Below are positions 875-55,130 of a stretch of 64,000 nucleotides of DNA, in pieces. The first letter of the stretch is position 1. Each line of letters starts with the position of its first letter. Below the pieces are notes generated by a model. The model searched no databases. It saw only the letters and a program-made list of their open reading frames with translations, and was not told the origin of the DNA. Origin of the DNA: Punctularia strigosozonata HHB-11173 SS5 (lineage: Eukaryota > Basidiomycota > Agaricomycetes > Corticiales > Punctulariaceae); contig NW_006767435.1 of assembly GCF_000264995.1 (NCBI RefSeq), positions 1,450,935 through 1,514,934 on the forward strand, in the 5' to 3' direction. The translations under genes and the position numbers were made by a program.

Positions 875-2620
875 CTAGGCGTAGCGACACGCCTGCGAAG
901 GAAAATCTGCTTCACGTACAATTTGGATCACGGGTACCAGGACTTTCAACCTTGCGAACATGGGATTCTCTTTGAGAGCTACGAAAACTGGGTTCCCGTC
1001 CTCGTGTGGCGAGGGGTTTGCAAATGTCAACAACTCGATAGGCGAGGTTCTAGTCTTGGTTGCAACATTATTCCCGTTGCGCCTCTCCACCAGCGTGTGC
1101 AAAAGATCCAGTACATCGTCGATTTCCTCCTTCTCGAATGTGTAAGAACTAGCAAAGATGGATAACGACGAGAGATTCGGAGCCACATTATCACCATGAC
1201 CATACGTGCATTCTCTAGTGAGGGCATATAAGAAGCCAAGAGTCGATGTGTCTTCGCCTAGGATCAATGTGTGCATTTGGGGATTTTGACATAGGACGGT
1301 GCACCAAAGGTGCGGGGTTCCGTAGTCACCGTCCATACACAAGACCGTTGGCTTGAGCACGCCCATGCGTGCTTGTAACTTGGCCAAGATGACGTTGTGC
1401 GTATTCGATGAGAACCACATTGAGAGCGGGAGATCTCCCATGTTAACGTGACTGCCGTCAGTCAGGCCGTAGTCCAAGAAGAACGATCCACCTTGGAGAG
1501 TCATCCGGAATGCCACGAATTGATCTGCACCGACTGATGGAGCGAGGAGATTGCAGTGCATGCGTGCAATGTCCCAGAGGAGCTCATATTTTGTTTCCCC
1601 ATCCTCGTCTACTTCATTTGCGCCCTCTTTGACACGAATCAGAAGGCGTGTAAGACGCGGCAGGATAAGATGATGGAGAAGTGTAATGCACTGAGTTGCA
1701 CTGTCGCAAATGGTAAGCTGTTGCAATGCAGGCAATGTAACTGAGCGCGTGGAGACCATTGAGTGTCGCAATGCGAAAGGAGGCTCCCTTGGAGGAGTAG
1801 GTGTGCTGAACGTGAGGTGAAGACATTGTAGCTGTGTCATGTTTTCAAGTACTCCAAGGGCATGCTCTAGCGGCGGAGAGGCTGATTCAGGGTCTTTCCG
1901 GAGTTCCAAAAAACGGAGTTTGGGGGATAGGAACAACGGCATTGTCCATGCCGTCAGCTTCACATCGAGTAACTCCAATGACAACAGATCAGGTGCCGTT
2001 ATTGAGTCCAACCATTTTCTGAGCGCCGAAATGTCTCCTTCAGGGTTCAAGGAGACAGAGAGGCGTCGCAGTGAAGGCAATAACCCTCTAAAACTGTCGA
2101 ATGCGTCGAACCTCTGCGAGATCCGTATGTCCAGCTCCGTAATTCGTGACGGCTCGTCCAAGAGCCGGCAGCGTTCGCCGTGTTCCCAGCCCTCGAGAGA
2201 GCCAAACACTCGGAGAGGAAAGCGGAAGTGGTCATAGAGATTCAGGCTTAGCTTTCGACGGCCGAGGTCCAAGATATCCACAGAGATGGCGTGCCTAAGG
2301 CAACACGTCGCCAGCGATCGCAAACGTGTGCGGTAGGTGGAATGAGTGGCCGACGAAACCAGGTCCGTTCGAACGGGAATTGTACGCGCTTGATAATGCC
2401 ATCGTCCTGCGCATGCGAGAAGACTTCAGAGAGGATTTCTGGCGGAAGGCGGGAGACAGGAAGAGAGGTGTTGTATCTCCGTTTGACCGCGATCATCTTG
2501 CGATGGATGTTCCGAATTTCCTCTTGCAATGATTTGAGTTCGTTCCGCAGAGAGGTCGGGAACGTAGCAGGCAAATGGCACATGTCGCCTGCATCAAAGG
2601 ACGATTCGCAATAGCATGCG
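875..2620 (-). pseudogene. F-box/leucine-rich-repeat-like protein with one frameshift
   Basis: The N-terminal part (ATG at 2583, MCHLPATF) holds a coiled segment followed by an F-box-like core with SRLPPEILSEVFSHAQ and then CDRWRRVALGTPSLW. F-box proteins of this kind serve as substrate adaptors for SCF ubiquitin ligases. The remaining 482 residues (2323 down to 875) are an uninterrupted LRR-like solenoid. The two frames meet at about 2290-2300. Against the related copy at 44.3-46.1 kb, which reads LWNTLDL here, this copy lacks exactly one base just after the TGG of LW. An acceptor at 2621-2623 matches the splice position in that copy, so a short upstream exon probably exists but was not located. 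No intron repairs the frame without removing the conserved LDL...LSLNLYDH segment. It is either a very young pseudogene or a one-base sequence error. Confidence 0.8.
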
Positions 2621-3309
2621 CTGGATGAACGGCGGCTCCTGCGACGAAAAGTATGAGTCGTGCAAACGTCGGTATACGCCGCGTAGGAAGCGGCAAACGT
2701 AGTTCATATTGTAGTTCGAGGTACTGTACACGCATGTGTACTGACCAATAACCTATCAGTCGTGTGCGCACGGAGTCGAGTAAGTTAGCACCGCTTGGAG
2801 ATCGGCGGACCGTTGGCGGCAGTCACACCGCGTGCAAGACGAAGCATGTGCACATCGATTCACCGTCCACGACGCTGCTCGTCGTGAACCTGCCGTAGGT
2901 GCTCAAAGGGAGGTACCCTGTCAATGGTAGCACAACCGAGCAGGGGTAAACGCAACGCCGAAAAAGCAGTAGCCGGCCCCACTAAAATCGAGCGATGGAA
3001 AACACTCAGTCCCGTTTGGTCCTCGTTTACCGCAAGGTTTCAGGCGATTGCGTATGATACAAAGAACGTATGGATTACCGATGAAGTACTATCGTACGTA
3101 CAGTCCGGAAGCCAGCAGGACACGCTAGAGATACAATTGCTATTGAGATGATGATACCTGTCATTCGAGTGCGTGCGTCAATGGGTTGGGAACAAGACGA
3201 AGAGCGTATGGATATAAAGATCAAGTAGAAGCACAGAGCATTCATTGGCCCAGCGGCGATTAGGAGCTTTAGCCTACGCGGAGAGAAGAAGAATGGATCG
3301 GGAAGACAC
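2621..3309. other. Intergenic between F-box gene and PRM1
   Basis: The presumed first exon and promoter of the F-box gene lie near 2640-2800. The rest is the 3' flank of PRM1. No other coding signal was found. Confidence 0.4.
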
Positions 3310-6300
3310 TCAGATCGCCACGCCGCCCGCGAACGGGTTGATGAGCGAGGGCCGGCTGTCCCTCGGCCCGAACGACATCCTGGCCGGGTTCACAGCTACC
3401 GCGTGCTCGTCGTCGAAAGGCGTCGTGAACGGGTCTACGGACGCGAGCGGACCCCCACGCTGCTGCAGCGGGGGCGGCGGCGCGAGCGCGTTGATCGCCC
3501 ACGGCCACGGTGCGCCCGCGGTGCCGGCGGGCGAGGCCGCCGGAGGCGGGGACGGCTCCTTCTGCTGGTGGTGGTGGAGGAACGCGTGGTGGAGCGGGAG
3601 CGGCGCGACGAACCGCGTCTGCTGCTGCATGGGCGGGAGCTCCTCCTCGACGTTCTCGGGCACGCTCGCCTTGCGCCGCCACTTGGGCGTCAGCGGCGCG
3701 ACGGGGAACAGGCCGGGCGGCGGGGGGCTCGGGACGATGTTGTGCGTCCACGGGCGGTAGGGTTCGGCCGTGGTGGTCGCGGGCGCGCTCGGGCCGGGGG
3801 AGACGGACCACGCGGATTTGAGTTCCGAGGCACGATCGACGCCGGGATGCGCGCGGCCGTCGTCGGAGGCGGCGTCGACGGCGATGGTCAGGTGCGCCGG
3901 GCGGCGCGCGCGGAAGGAGGCGGAAGAGGTGTGCGAGACCGCGTCGTCGTCGTCATCGGAGGAACGCGAGCGAGAAAACAGGCGCGTGAAGGGTTGGAGC
4001 CAGCCAGCGGATGCGGGCGTCTTCTCGGCGGGTGCTGGCGCGAGGCCTTCGCCTTCGCGCTTGCGGCCGAGCGCCATGAGCCTGCGCGGCGCGGAGATGG
4101 TGAAGCGTGCACGAGCCGCGGGCCGCGGCTCCGGTGTGGCGGAATGGTCGAAAAAGCTTTCCGAGCTCCGGCGCGCGTCCCGCGGCGAGCGCACCACCGC
4201 GAACGGGTCCGGTGTCGCGAACACGTGCTGCACGCCCTTCTCGTCCGCGACGATGTCCCGGGTCTGCGGTGCGGGGAGGGGGACGGGGCCCCGCTGCTGC
4301 CGCTCCCACTTGCGCCGGCGACGCGCCTCGAGCCAGTGCTGGCCGTAGCTGTGCCACCAGACGATGGCGAGCGCCATGAGGACGACAACGCCCCAGAGGC
4401 CGAGGAAGAGCGCAAACATGATGCGCTCCTTCTTGAGCGAGGCGACGTAGCTGTTCACCAGCCGCCCGACGACCCCGCCGCTGTCGGTTCCGTTGCCTCC
4501 TACGGCAGCAGCAGCGATAGGTTGCGTAGCCTCATCAACCTGCGCAGGCGAGAGCACGAGTACGGATTGGTTGACGGTCGGGATGTCGACGACGAGGTTG
4601 TTGTGGAGGAAGGTGAGGGCGTCCTCGAGCGCTTCGACCTTGGAGCCGATGAAGCATCGGATGAACTCCTGCACGGGGCTCTCGAGGATCGTGCCGTTGA
4701 ACACGGCCGATACCGCGTCCTGGACGTCGTCGTAGAACGCGTTCAGGGTGTCGTTGAGCGTCGTCGTTGTCCCGTTCACCCAGCCGAACACGCCGTCGTT
4801 GATCGTGCTTTGCACCGCGGCAACGCGGGCGTTGATGTCGTCCGCGTACGCGGCCGACTGGTTGTACATGCTGGCGGACATACTGGCGGCGATGGTGTTC
4901 GAGAAGTCGGCGGTGGTGGCGACAGCGCGGGCCTGGTAGTGCGCTTCGAGCGGGCGCACGGCGGCGAGCTGCAGCTCGACGGAGAGTAGACCGAAGAAGC
5001 CGATGAGGAAGCAGGCAAGAGCGGGCGGGTGGAAGACATAGTGCAGCGACCACTGCAGGTTCGTGTGCTGCGTCGGGGAGAGGCGCAGGCGCGCCGCAAG
5101 CTGGTTCGCGATCCGGGTGAGGAGCGGGTGCTGCGCGCTCGCCTGGAGCATCATCAGGTTGTGGTCCGTAAGCTTGACCTCAGGCGCGGCGTTCATGGCG
5201 ATTTGCGACTTGGCGTAGAGCGTGGGGTCGGTGGTCCACGCCTCGCGCGTGTAGCGGAGGTGTTGCTTCAGGCACCGCCACTTGTACCACTCGAGCGCGC
5301 AGTGGCCGGCGAGAAGGAGGAGTGCGGCAAGGGCAAGGATGAGGATCCCGATCTTGGTGAGCTTGGCAAGGTCGCGGCCGAGGTCGTCGACGACGGAGGT
5401 GTCGAGCCCGTCGCAAAAGGCGAGCGTATTCTGCTCCGGGACGGGCAGGACGGAGGCGTCGAAGGTGAGGTTGGCGAAGGTGTCGTTGATGTCTTTCTTG
5501 AGCAGCTCGAAGGGGGTGTCGATGCTATCAGGGGTGTCAGATCGAGGGCGAGGGAGAAATGTAGAGAAGAACGTACATGGACTCGATCTTGTCCTTGATT
5601 TCGGAGAACGACGGGATGGAATTGTTCAACGACTCGAGCGATTGTTCAAAGTCGGTCGGAAGCGTGACGTTCTCGAGCGCGGTCAGGCTTGGGACCGAGA
5701 TCTGCGGCGCCTTGATGTCGCTGAACGGGTTGACCTTGTTGATCGCATTGATGGTGCTGTTTATTGCGGAGTTGGCGGTCTCAATGTCGTTCTGAATCGA
5801 AGTCCGCAGGCCGTTGAACGTGTTCTCGATGAAGTCGCTGAGCTGGAGGAGCGCGTCAATGAATGATTCTGTATTCCACTGCTCAATCAACTTTACCTCT
5901 TTCACAGCGCTAATGAGGATAGAGAGGCCACCGCGAACGACGAGTTCGACAAAGCAGAGGAACGTGGAACGGTAAATGTCGACGATGAAGTTGATGATGG
6001 CTTCCATGACCGTCAAGGCAAGGACCAGAGCCGCACGCGCACCTGACAACAGGATCAGCGATGCATCACAGCGGAATCATAAGGATGCCCACCGTTCATG
6101 GTCCCGTTCACAGCGTCAGCTATCTGCTGGTTCGTAGCGGCAGCCATGTAGCGCGGCATGCTCGCGGCGGCGGTGGCGGCGTGCTCCGCGGCCTTACAGC
6201 TCGCGAGGAGGTCTGCCTTGGCATTGGTAGCCGCATCCTGTGAGGCCGCTGACGACTCAAGAAGGCGGAAGACAACAAAGACAAGAGAAAGGATCGGGTA

Positions 6301-50475: not shown

Positions 50476-50683
50476 TACTTCAAGCACCTGGACTCAGCAG
50501 ATGCTGTGCGAGCGTCTACGTCCGAGAAGGGCAGGTTGTTCGCACGATTATACATTGATTCACTTCCTGCACGTTCGCTTCTATGCAGCGCAGGTACATG
50601 TGAATGCATGACGACTGCATACATAATCACTTTCAGCACCGATGACGATGATGACATAGATAACAGAGCTGCAGCAGAACAAT

Positions 50684-50709
50684 AGGGGGACTCAAAGTTG
50701 GCGATTATG
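50684..50709 (+). repeat. Harbinger left terminal inverted repeat
   Basis: 26 bp, identical to the reverse complement of 54989-55014. Preceded by AAT (50681-50683), the left copy of the target duplication. Further GATTATG-type motifs follow within the next 70 bp. Confidence 0.92.
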
Positions 50710-50947
50710 CACTGATTATGTGTTGGATTATGCGTCGATTCTGTGTCGATTCTGGTGTCGCTACACGACTATAATCCGACTCTCAACTTTGAACCCCCCG
50801 CTACACCAGCTGATTATGTCCGTATTATGTGCGTGATTCCTTGTCTGCCGACACTTCGGCACGTCCATCGGAGCTGCAATATATTGGATCCCGAACAATG
50901 GGCTTGCCACGAGATTGAGTTAGATACCGCGTGTGTCGCTTTCCCCC

Positions 50948-52415
50948 ATGCCTCGACACTCCGTACGAGCACGAAGCATACGCGACCTCGTAGAGGGATA
51001 TACACTGCAATTGCTAGCAGAAGGCAGGTCAGAAGAGCAATCATCCTCAGATAGCTCTATGGACACCTCCGGGTCATCAGCATCGGAGTCTTCGAGCTCA
51101 TCGGGCTCATCAGAGCAGGCCGATGACTATCAGCCGCTTTCGCAGCTCTACCTTCGTGAGCTTGCAGCAATCCAGGCCTCACGGTACATGAACGAACGCG
51201 AGGCTATCATTAAAACACCCGAGAACATACAGCTTCTTCTTCACCAATACAAGGTTGATTTTCCCGATATATTCCGCAGCTTCACGGGCATATCTCCAGC
51301 CTGCTTCGACAATATCCTATGCTGCATCGGCACAGATCCTGCATTCCATAACAACTCCAACAATCCTCAGATGCCTGTGGATCAGCAATTGGCCATAGCA
51401 TTGTACCGGTTTCGTCACTTTGGCAATGCAGTGAGCGTGCTGAAGGTAGCTCTGTGGGCTGGTGTCTCTGTGGGAACCGTGATTGGGGTCACCAAGCATG
51501 TCATGGCTGCAGTTTGCGGAGACTCAGGTCTTCGCCATGGTGCTATTGCTTTCCCAGATGCAGAAGCAAAGGAGAAGGCAAAATCCTGGGTCGAGACCAT
51601 GTCATGTTCAGGATGGCGCGATGGCTGGCTTATGGTCGATGGGACTCTTATTCCCTTGTATGAGCGGCCGGCATTCTTTGGGAATACGTGGTATGACAGG
51701 AAAAGCAACTATTCTATGAACCTGCAGGTTAGTGCACTCTGAGCCCCTGCAATCACTTTACACTGACTTGTTCTCAGCTGGTGTCTACACCTGATCTCCA
51801 GATCATCGACTACAGTGTAGGGCTTCCTGGCAGTCAGCATGACTCCACTGCATGGGCAGAGACAAGAATCTATAAGGAGCACGAGAAACTCCTGAACAGT
51901 GATGAATGGGTCTGGGGTGATTCTGCATATCCCTTAGAAACATGGTGCCAGGCACCATACAAGAAGTCAGTATTACCAATATACCACGGTGTATATGACT
52001 AAAAAGGTGTTATAGGCCTGAAAGTGAGCTTGCGGAAAACAGGAAGCACAATTACTATGTTTCTAAAATCCGTGTTCGGAGCGAACACTGTGTCGGTTTC
52101 CTCAAAGGGCGCTTTTCATCACTGCGAGGCCTTCGTGTTCAAATCGACAATCCCAAGAAGATCCAGTTTGCTGCATTGTGGATACACACATGTGTTATTC
52201 TCCACGCAGTTGCGATCAAACATGAAGCTGGTACGGACTTGGCTGCAGATGAATTCTACGCTGCAGGACTTGATATCATGAGGGAAGAGGCTGGGGCGCA
52301 AGAAGAGGTGCAAGTTGCACCTTATACCATTGCAAGTAGGCATGCAGCATTACAAAGGGGACAGCAGAAACGTGAGCAGCTCAAGAGAGTTCTATTCGAG
52401 CAGCTATCACTTTGA
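50948..52415 (+). CDS. Harbinger transposase (DDE superfamily nuclease)
   Basis: It cuts and joins the transposon ends. Three exons (50948-51727, 51778-51965, 52016-52415) with 50-bp introns encode 455 residues. A Ser-rich acidic lead-in (about 30-70) precedes a helical segment, PENIQLLLHQYKVDFPDIF, and the helix-turn-helix-like block VDQQLAIALYRFRHFGNAVS then VLKVALWAGVSVGTVIGV. The DDE catalytic residues fit DGTLIPLYERP (first Asp), WGDSAYPL (second Asp) and VRSEHCVGFLKGRF (Glu). NTWYDRKSNYSMNLQ and GLPGSQHDSTAW are typical Harbinger motifs. No defects were seen. An earlier in-frame GTG exists, but ATG 50948 (MPRHSVRAR) is the natural start. Confidence 0.93.
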
Positions 52416-52550
52416 TTAGCCACAATATACTGTAGATATTATAACGAGACAGTCTATGCACAGTTCGAAGTGATGCAATGCAATCCATTACTATGTCCAT
52501 CAAGCGGGTGTGGAGGACAAGGAACTACTAAGTTATTCAGTGCAGGGGGA

Positions 52551-54615
52551 TTAAGTTGAAGGATGCGGCCACATGTCCGACATGCCAGAGTCCAATAGCA
52601 CAGGGAGATCAAACACAGCATTGTTATGACTTGGCAATGCATCCGTCATGGAAAAGCTATTCGGAGTATTCCATGAATCTGATGCAAGAATATGAGACTC
52701 GAGGTGACACGCAAACATCAAAGACGTACTATCGTGGCTCACTGACATCGCCGGATCGGACCCCAATGCGGGGTTGTTGACACTGCTGGAACTGAGACCG
52801 TGCTGGATCCGTGCAAGCTCTATCTGAGCTTGCATCATCTGCAGTTCATGCCGGCGACGGTGTTCGGACTCCTCTGCCTCGAATCTGTTCTTCTGCTGAT
52901 TGAGCTGTAGATCACGCCGTGTGCGCTCAGCCTCACGTCTGACTTTACTATCAGCCCGTGAGGCTGCTACCTCTATTCGGACGCGATGCTCAGCCTCCGA
53001 GATCTTGTCGAGACGGTCAAAAGGATTGTTCTCCTTCTTCCGTTTCGACTGAGCATCCTCGAGCTTGCCAGTCGTGGTATCCAGCTCGTCAGATTTGCGT
53101 TTGGCCGAGCCACTGTTACTGTTAACTCCAGGCGCCAACAACACTGCAGTCTCTATCTGCTTCTGATCCTGTGGCTTAGAGGTAGTTGGCGATGACAGCA
53201 CGTTATCCAAGTGGGGCGAACCCACATGAGAGTCAGTGATGGATGAGATCTCTGACCCGGGGTGGCCAGAATAAGAGCTGCTATCCCCGCTGGAGCGGCG
53301 AAAGCTCCGGTGACGAGCAGAAGGCGTCGGTATATCCTGCGGCATGGTGAGAACGAGGAATGTGCAGTAAACATCATGTCGTACCTTGTCTGCGAATGCT
53401 GCCGCTCCAGTGTCACCCGGATCGTTCCCGCTGCCCGTGCCGTACCCACCACTCAGGGTATACCCATCATCCGCGCCATACCCCCTGCCCACGCTGTACA
53501 CGTCGCCCAAGACATATCCACCATTCGTGTCGTACCCACCGCCCACGACATACCCGTTATTCGTGTCGTAGCTGTCACCCGCAACGTACCCGCCGCCAGC
53601 AAGGTGCCTGTCGCCTGTGCCGTTGCTTTCGCCGTGACCATCGCTCGTGTCGTACCTGCCACCCGCGTCACCACCACTTTCGCTCACGTTGTCACCATCG
53701 CCCGTGCCGTCACCATTTCCCGTGTCTTCGCCACCACCCCCGTCGATGTCCGAACTCGAGCCCTGGGTAATGGATCGCTTTGCATATGACCCAAGAGCGG
53801 AGAGATCCAATTTGGTGCCACTATGTGCAATCGCAGAACGATCCACAATCGGACTAGCACCCATGAGGATATTCATGCGCTTGTACCACGGGAATGCGGT
53901 CTGGATTTTATCTGTAATGCCATTAGACAGTGTACTGAGCAGCACAAAGAAGAACATACCCCATATATTCTGAAGCGTAGATCCGGGCGTGATCTCATGC
54001 TCCCGATCATCGTCGATGAGGCCTTGACCAGTCTCGGATAACATCTGACGCTGCTTTCGATATATTTTCTTGAGGCTATATCAAGAAAAGGGTCACACGT
54101 AGCTAAGATAAGAGTCAAACAAGACATACTTGGCGACACGGTTCTTGATACACGTTGAGAGGCGATCCAGGTCTTCATCCACGTACTCTTCGGTGATCCG
54201 CTGATTATTGAAGAAAATGGTGCGAGCAAGTTGTCGATAGAGCTGAGTACTGTTCTTTCCTACACCCGACACTGGGGTACCATTTGGCCCTTTGTCGAAT
54301 CCGAAGGCTTGCTTGTACGTCGAGCTAGCCTCCACGGCTGTCAACAGGCTGTCGGTAAGGTGATGGTTGGCTGGCGGCCTCCATCTGTATGCAGTTGAGC
54401 CTGTGCATGGACATAAAGAAGTTGGAATGACGGACTCGACGTCCCGCTTCTCTACATTCTCCTGCTTTTCTATCTTCTCCGCTTTCGCCTTCCTACTTCT
54501 AGTCTGCCTTGCCGGAGCAGCATTGGTCTGCAATGGCGAAACTACTTTATAGGTGTGAATATGTCGAGTCAAACACACTGCGGGACGTACCAGACTTCTT
54601 CGACTTGTTCACCAT
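52551..54615 (-). CDS. Harbinger Myb/SANT-like DNA-binding partner protein
   Basis: Harbinger elements need a second, Myb-like protein that brings the transposase to the nucleus and to the ends. Five exons (54615-54591, 54544-54130, 54075-53960, 53911-53385, 53336-52551) give 622 residues. The first exon encodes MVNKSKKS; the first acceptor (ataaag) is weak but is the one that keeps frame. A basic region TRSRKAKAEK precedes a three-helix, trihelix-like part (HHLTDSLLTAVEASSTYKQA ... STQLYRQLARTIF ... LSTCIKNRVANLKKIYRKQR ... IQTAFPWYKRM). A Gly/Asp/Tyr-rich repetitive stretch (about 190-360) is unusual. A nuclear-signal-like KRKSDELD...KRKKENN and a long Arg/Glu coiled coil follow. The frame is open throughout. 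Confidence 0.8.
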
Positions 54616-54897
54616 CTACTGAATGCGCTGGCGGCGCAATGCGGACCGTTATTGGACCGCAATCGAATCCCTAGGTTGCACCAGACGTCGTCATTACAAG
54701 TCTGTGAGTAATCGGGCATGTTCCATACGTGTATAAGTTAGACAGAAGGAATGAGGTGGAGTATAGCGTAGGTAGCCAACGTCGACGCTGATGGTGGAAG
54801 GAACGAAGGGAAGCGGAGAGCGTGCCCGTGATCGACTCATCCGAACTTTGAGACTCCGCTGTAGCGGAGCATCGTAGCAGAATCAGATTATGGGTCG

Positions 54898-54935
54898 AAT
54901 CGAGTGTAGCAGCTCTGGAGCTGCTACACTCGATT
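54898..54935. repeat. Perfect 18-bp-arm palindrome inside Harbinger right end
   Basis: The left arm AATCGAGTGTAGCAGCTC (54898-54915) and its exact complement (54918-54935) are split by only TG. A smaller hairpin, ACTCCGC/GCGGAG, lies about 45 bp to the left near 54851-54869. Both are near the right terminus and absent from the left end. Confidence 0.85.
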
Positions 54936-54988
54936 ACCCCGTAATCCGCGTCCATAATCGACTTTCTAATCGACTCCATAATCCGTCC

Positions 54989-55014
54989 CATAATCGCCAA
55001 CTTTGAGTCCCCCT
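54989..55014 (-). repeat. Harbinger right terminal inverted repeat
   Basis: 26 bp, identical in reverse complement to 50684-50709. Followed by AAT (55015-55017), the right copy of the target duplication. Several CATAATC-type motifs lie just inside it. Confidence 0.92.
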
Positions 55015-55130
55015 AATCAACACGATTATACGATGCAACGAGAGCGAGTTGTGAGTGTATCTAGCGATTATGGACATTATAATGATACAGTAAGCACGAA
55101 CGAAAAGCTCCATCCTGGTCGTCAGCATCG

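Follow-up and report, generated by a model that had tools for sequence, protein, structure and literature searches.

Background

In the sections of Han et al. (2015, PMC4482050) on which we draw, PIF/Harbinger elements duplicate a TWA target, have a mean length of 4,124 bp and carry terminal inverted repeats (TIRs) that usually start with A or G. Pangu elements are described there with an ANT duplication, TIRs of 11-40 bp starting with AG or GG, two open reading frames (ORFs) and a mean length of about 3,487 bp, and they occur in three basidiomycetes among other hosts. On the second Pangu ORF the same paper gives two statements, the results reporting no known motif and the discussion stating that a Myb/SANT protein is encoded. 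In the portion of a 2025 paper (PMC12730594) considered here, the Repbase name Harbinger2 corresponds to Pangu. Here we describe a transposon in a 64,000-nt stretch of the Punctularia strigosozonata HHB-11173 SS5 genome (the window, C3:1450935-1514934). The assembly totals 33,569,446 bases, and its 32 contigs are cited below as C1, C3 and so on. The first-pass annotation of the window had proposed a complete and possibly active Harbinger element at positions 50684-55014. We confirmed a complete two-gene DNA transposon at this position, and we are highly confident that it is a probably autonomous cut-and-paste element of the PHIS superfamily (PIF/Harbinger, ISL2EU, Spy and kin) and of the ANT-duplicating Pangu kind. 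No title or abstract beginning in the literature listings, whose coverage was partial, dealt with this particular family, and we do not present it as new to the literature.

Element boundaries and target site

The element spans 4,331 bp and is bounded by two TIRs of 26 bp, the left one starting with AGGGGG (50684-50709, plus strand) and the right one being its perfect complement (54989-55014, minus strand). The identical ends of the first-pass annotation were therefore borne out at 26/26 bases, and similarity between the two ends reaches to about 37 bp at 92%. The AAT target-site duplication was likewise found intact, at 50681-50683 on the left and 55015-55017 on the right, and an inverted repeat that takes in one base of each copy (50683-50709 / 54989-55015) is 100% complementary. 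A genome-wide search for the end pattern with up to 3 mismatches returned 12 forward and 12 reverse matches and its reversed control 0 and 0, so the ends cannot be attributed to chance.

The target flanks were AAT or ATT and equal on both sides in 17/17 insertions for which both flanks could be read (11 + 6), and the TWA duplication that defines PIF/Harbinger was seen in 0/17. Three other elements with a DDE_Tnp_4 transposase for which ends were found (C5:1504280, C7:200483 and C1:2994922-3000504) also start with AG and are flanked by an AAT or ATT duplication. With A as its first base and T as its last, the element has flanks that can be read as a TA duplication too. Such a 2-bp duplication would put no constraint on the following base, and since this base agreed on both sides in 17/17 cases the TA reading was rejected. 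A canonical PIF/Harbinger element, which the DDE_Tnp_4 transposase, the presence of two genes and a length of 4.3 kb close to the published mean would suit, is improbable in the face of these target sites. The name given in the first-pass annotation consequently holds for a complete two-gene element with open frames in the Harbinger superfamily taken broadly, and fails in the strict sense. Judged from these sequence features, the label should be Pangu-like PHIS element rather than TWA Harbinger.

Transposase gene

The transposase gene (50948-52415, plus strand) comprises three exons (50948-51727, 51778-51965 and 52016-52415) separated by two GT-AG introns of 50 bp each, and encodes a predicted protein of 455 amino acids (aa). 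Splice sites of this and the second gene were picked from sequence alone. In a Pfam comparison the spliced protein matched DDE_Tnp_4 with an E value of 3.1e-33 over profile positions 1-157 of 158, and the predicted catalytic triad consists of D231 (51638-51640), D308 (51919-51921) and E346 (52083-52085). The DDE transposase can thus be aligned across the catalytic domain, which is what defines the PHIS superfamily. The Pfam scan of this protein returned DDE families only and no further domains. A search of solved structures with the transposase gave no match at E values up to 1, and a plasmid search with its first exon also gave none, which is uninformative.

Second gene and subterminal motifs

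The second gene lies convergent (tail to tail) with the transposase gene at 52551-54615 on the minus strand. Its five exons (54615-54591, 54541-54130, 54075-53960, 53911-53385 and 53336-52551) are separated by introns of 49, 54, 48 and 48 bp. The proposal that both proteins stay open across all introns stood for the transposase with its 455 aa, and the second protein needed a small correction from 622 to 621 aa. Both 48-bp introns are open in frame, so that keeping either one would give a protein of 637 aa and keeping both one of 653 aa; being frame-neutral, these two introns draw no evidence for their splicing from the open frame.

The second protein is composed of a candidate Myb/SANT-like N-terminal part, a middle part rich in Gly, Asp and Tyr and a charged C-terminal part rich in Glu and Arg, the latter two judged by eye. 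A degenerate Gly/Asp/Tyr-rich repeat stretch was noted within it (53385-53760, minus strand). The whole protein had no domain match in Pfam. Its N-terminal part gave a Myb_DNA-bind_4 alignment with an E value of 0.13 and 13.1 bits, below the cut-off of 27, and the second gene of an element from the other transposase group described below (L073) gave E 0.09, also below the cut-off, while the second-gene pieces of three further relatives (C16, C1:2999078 and L075) had no match to this profile. The Myb/SANT nature of the second protein may accordingly be taken as a hint only. A single-sequence fold of window positions 54093-54608 (unspliced exon frame) contained only helices at a mean predicted local distance difference test score (pLDDT) of 42 and was not used as evidence. 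Five solved-structure matches of the second-protein profile were Cas12a chains with E values of 0.75-0.76, which we took as chance.

Inside both ends the element carries clusters of the motif GATTATG or its complement CATAATC, which are putative binding sites. The left cluster (50703-50818, plus strand) has motif starts at 50703, 50714, 50726 and 50812, and the right cluster (54886-54995, minus strand) at 54886, 54953, 54977 and 54989. All 8 copies in the element lie within about 135 bp of an end, compared with 5 copies in the rest of the window (59,669 bp). A Markov control of 2,000 sequences of 360 bp, modelled on the outer 180 bp of each end, contained the motif 0.07 times on average and 2 times at most. 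The hexamer GATTAT was kept in 7-9 copies in six gene-less relatives of 0.5-2.1 kb. Near the right end there is also a perfect 18-bp inverted repeat with a 2-bp spacer (54898-54935).

Two-gene relatives and transposase phylogeny

A second convergent gene pair was found on C16 (locus L063, C16:439000-446800), in a stretch that is single-copy. At this locus the transposase gene (3432-5088, minus strand) is open across 517 codons in three exons and the second gene occupies about 1993-3397 on the plus strand. Its second protein matched that of the window in phmmer with E values of 1.1e-6 and 3.5e-4 for two exon pieces at 33% identity, and the alignment scored 57.3 bits compared with 3.5 for the best of 200 shuffles. 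By these comparisons the two second proteins are clearly homologous. Between the two transposases pN (nonsynonymous divergence) was 0.41 and pS (synonymous divergence) 0.77, with values of 0.30 and 0.75 in the DDE core; pN below pS points to a constrained protein, with the reservation that pS is close to saturation.

Another diverged two-gene relative, of 5,583 bp, is located at C1:2994922-3000504 (L067/L064); by transposase, it and the C16 locus are the window element's nearest relatives. It is single-copy, and its ends start with AGGG, agree at 14/14 and 20/22 bases and each have ATT next to them. In the control, 0/200 shuffled contigs gave a 14/14 pair with equal flanks, and a search of the assembly allowing up to 3 mismatches recovered no further occurrence of the end pattern. 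Between the two genes lies another repeat, a piece of 1.15 kb that recurs as a 95% copy at C3:1294600-1295753. The apparent stops in its transposase gene (C1:2999078) sit within stretches readable as introns, and a candidate second gene occupies the same convergent position beside it. This candidate (L064 piece) was not listed by phmmer with the window protein at E values up to 1. Aligned to the window protein alone it scored 4.5 bits, compared with 4.9 for the best of 200 shuffles, and with a profile of the window and C16 proteins 12.5 bits, compared with 5.6 for the best of 500 shuffles, so that its homology is weakly supported.

These pairings bear on whether the second gene might be an unrelated passenger rather than a transposition cofactor. 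Such a passenger would be expected to look as this protein does in two respects, as it has no Pfam domain over its full length and a genome search with it matched its own locus only. The equally convergent homologue beside the C16 transposase, and more weakly the candidate beside the C1:2999078 transposase, indicate instead that the pairing of transposase and second gene is old, and we regard a passenger as very unlikely.

Two further elements of about 3 kb with DDE_Tnp_4 transposases (L073 1410-4575 on C5 and L075 1306-4265 on C7) have AG ends and AAT or ATT duplications, and in each a further open frame lies convergent with the transposase gene. Among the seven relative loci searched for ends, no credible ones were found for L063, L065, L074 and L076. 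A tree of 10 DDE rows (9 distinct), taken from 10/16 places counted, grouped the window with C16 and C1:2999078 (support 97/95) and C5:1504280 with C7, C15, C4 and C5:860242 (99/99), and a long branch (C3:1071501) leaves the remainder unsure. As both of these well-separated groups contain elements with AAT or ATT duplications, the duplication alone leaves the clade unfixed. Within the other group, the loci L040 and L041 (C4:313675 and C5:860242) encode identical DDE protein domains, perhaps as a result of a recent duplication.

One further idea that we raise as speculative and rather improbable is that the second protein would be an unrecognised, highly diverged Myb/SANT-type cofactor serving two-gene, ANT-duplicating elements of a basidiomycete lineage, and that the C16 transposase-cofactor pair would have been retained as host genes after loss of the ends. 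The C16 pair would then parallel, in a fungus, HARBI1 and NAIF1 of vertebrates. The ends and target duplication of the C1 pair make this idea less likely.

Family members in the genome

The 24 end matches resolved into 11 elements with both ends, a lone end (C3:129626) and an extra internal end (C7:1059110). Other places with the same ends therefore exist, and the possibility considered in the first-pass annotation, that there are no other copies anywhere, does not hold. One of them is a second locus at C1:64998-74000, whose first 533 bp are 99.25% identical to the window. Past this point it contains a run of N of 7,672 bp and then inverted left-end copies with other DNA between them. Inside an inverted left-end copy of this locus we noted 416 bp (L025 8982-9397, C1) with TG...CA termini and GTTGA on both flanks, which by eye resemble a solo long terminal repeat.

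Ten other places (nine two-ended, one with the lone end), some of them gapped by N, matched the window at the ends only. In their ten left-type ends the TIR differed at 1-2 of 26 bases and positions 27-200 differed by 19-24%. Among gene-less copies, those on C8 and C12 are 99.1% alike and C6:2101960 is 95.6-95.7% identical to both. Six further elements of 734-743 bp are 73-74% identical to the window over the first ~190 bp and 97.2-98.8% identical among themselves. Other sequence and long stretches of N break up several gene-less relatives (L027/L028, L030/L031 and L034/L035), which may represent nested elements.

Four end pairs enclose 9-13 kb. Large cargo elements could not be demonstrated from them, as all four hold N runs, of 7,672 bp at C1:64998, 9.8 kb at C1:4125114, 8.3 kb on C5 and 9.2 kb on C7. 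In the C1:4125114, C5 and C7 pairs the outer parts have the sequence of the short relatives, and the interior consists of other DNA. The candidate of a TET/JBP or KDZ cargo element was dropped on account of the same N runs.

Age, activity and proposed function

The identical ends had been taken as a sign of recent arrival, which our comparison did not support. In the ten relatives, 24-25 of 26 end bases are unchanged despite the divergence just inside; with ends conserved in members whose inner sequence is a fifth diverged, identical ends are expected regardless of age. The expectation that intact copies would be outnumbered by decayed ones was not met with either, most other members being end-only, gene-less relatives, some with N runs, next to a single full-length copy. 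What speaks for recency are the two open genes, the intact boundaries and the C1:64998 locus, which differs at only 4/533 bp; at two of these positions the window has C where C1 has T, in a CpG context.

Several observations weigh against the reading as a complete, probably autonomous element and against the function proposed for it below. When the whole element was searched for at the DNA level, the window's own copy was the one full-length family member found, a count that is a lower bound and blind to stretches of N. No empty site of the insertion was present in the assembly, where the search returned the two flanks only. The gene-less relatives are 19-24% divergent just inside the ends, so their source need not be the window copy. 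The observed/expected CpG ratio is 0.64 in the transposase gene and 1.19 in the remainder of the window; the low value tells against a plain recent insertion and would be consistent with a long time spent methylated at this site. For the C16 pair we found no credible inverted ends or target duplication, an end pair at this locus (14-mer, 2 mismatches, flank GCA) being rejected as chance when 5/10 shuffles also gave one, and from its sequence we cannot tell whether it is an eroded element or a domesticated pair. Finally, the sole ~740-bp relative scanned has 1 GATTAT, which speaks against the motif cluster being strictly required.

The first, third and fourth of these points would equally suit a copy with intact boundaries and frames that is now silent, for example by methylation, with the gene-less relatives stemming from earlier bursts. 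Such a copy would be compatible with the element class assigned here and incompatible with present activity. Against silence stand the frames that are open over 455 and 621 codons, the near identity of the C1 locus, the close similarity within the C8/C12/C6 copies and within the six ~740-bp copies, and a second gene that is not CpG-poor (0.98). The ratio was 0.90 for the element as a whole and 1.0 in the 2-kb left flank. In nine other element stretches it ranged from 0.80 to 1.07, so the low value may reflect family history and not insertion age. We consider a silent copy quite possible, though short of probable. Autonomy of the element is plausible, and a recent and active status is unproven.

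For the preferred reading of an autonomous Pangu-like element we propose the following function. The 455-aa DDE transposase would cut the 26-bp ends at their outermost A/T, as suggested by its triad and family, and the element would insert into A-W-T, with the target, whose duplication we observed, being doubled on repair. The 621-aa protein may bind the CATAATC clusters inside both ends and recruit the transposase. The gene-less elements with the same ends and type of duplication would be non-autonomous and might have been mobilised by this element or an earlier relative.

Comparison with known systems

As a kind the element is ordinary, and the second protein is the part worth following. An intact two-gene element, together with short relatives that have the same ends and duplication, lends itself to testing the role of the second protein in ANT-type PHIS elements; otherwise the locus matters mainly for annotation, as Pangu-like and not as TWA Harbinger.

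Set beside the described groups, as far as the cited portions of the two papers cover them, the element shares with PIF/Harbinger proper the DDE transposase, the second gene and a TIR starting with A or G, but differs in a target-site duplication that is AWT here and TWA there. A second ORF with a Myb/SANT domain is a further mark of PIF/Harbinger, for which the second protein here gave the below-cut-off Myb_DNA-bind_4 alignment described above. PHISTA of Puccinia (PMC12730594) is likewise a fungal Harbinger-related DDE transposon, but makes a 2-bp TA duplication and carries a TET/JBP gene in its TET+ families, whereas here the duplication has 3 bp and neither protein has a TET/JBP Pfam domain. 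ISL2EU elements resemble it in their DDE transposase and AT-rich target, but have a 2-bp AT duplication and a YqaJ second ORF (PMC4482050), in contrast to the 3-bp duplication and the second protein without a YqaJ match found here. Pangu is closest, with an ANT duplication (AWT in our case), the 26-bp TIR and its AGGGGG start, two ORFs and a single DDE transposase without other domains. Differences from Pangu are the greater length, 4,331 bp compared with the published mean, and the middle target base, which was W in 17/17 insertions. By target site, end letters and gene count, rather than by placement in a reference tree, the element thus appears to fit Pangu.

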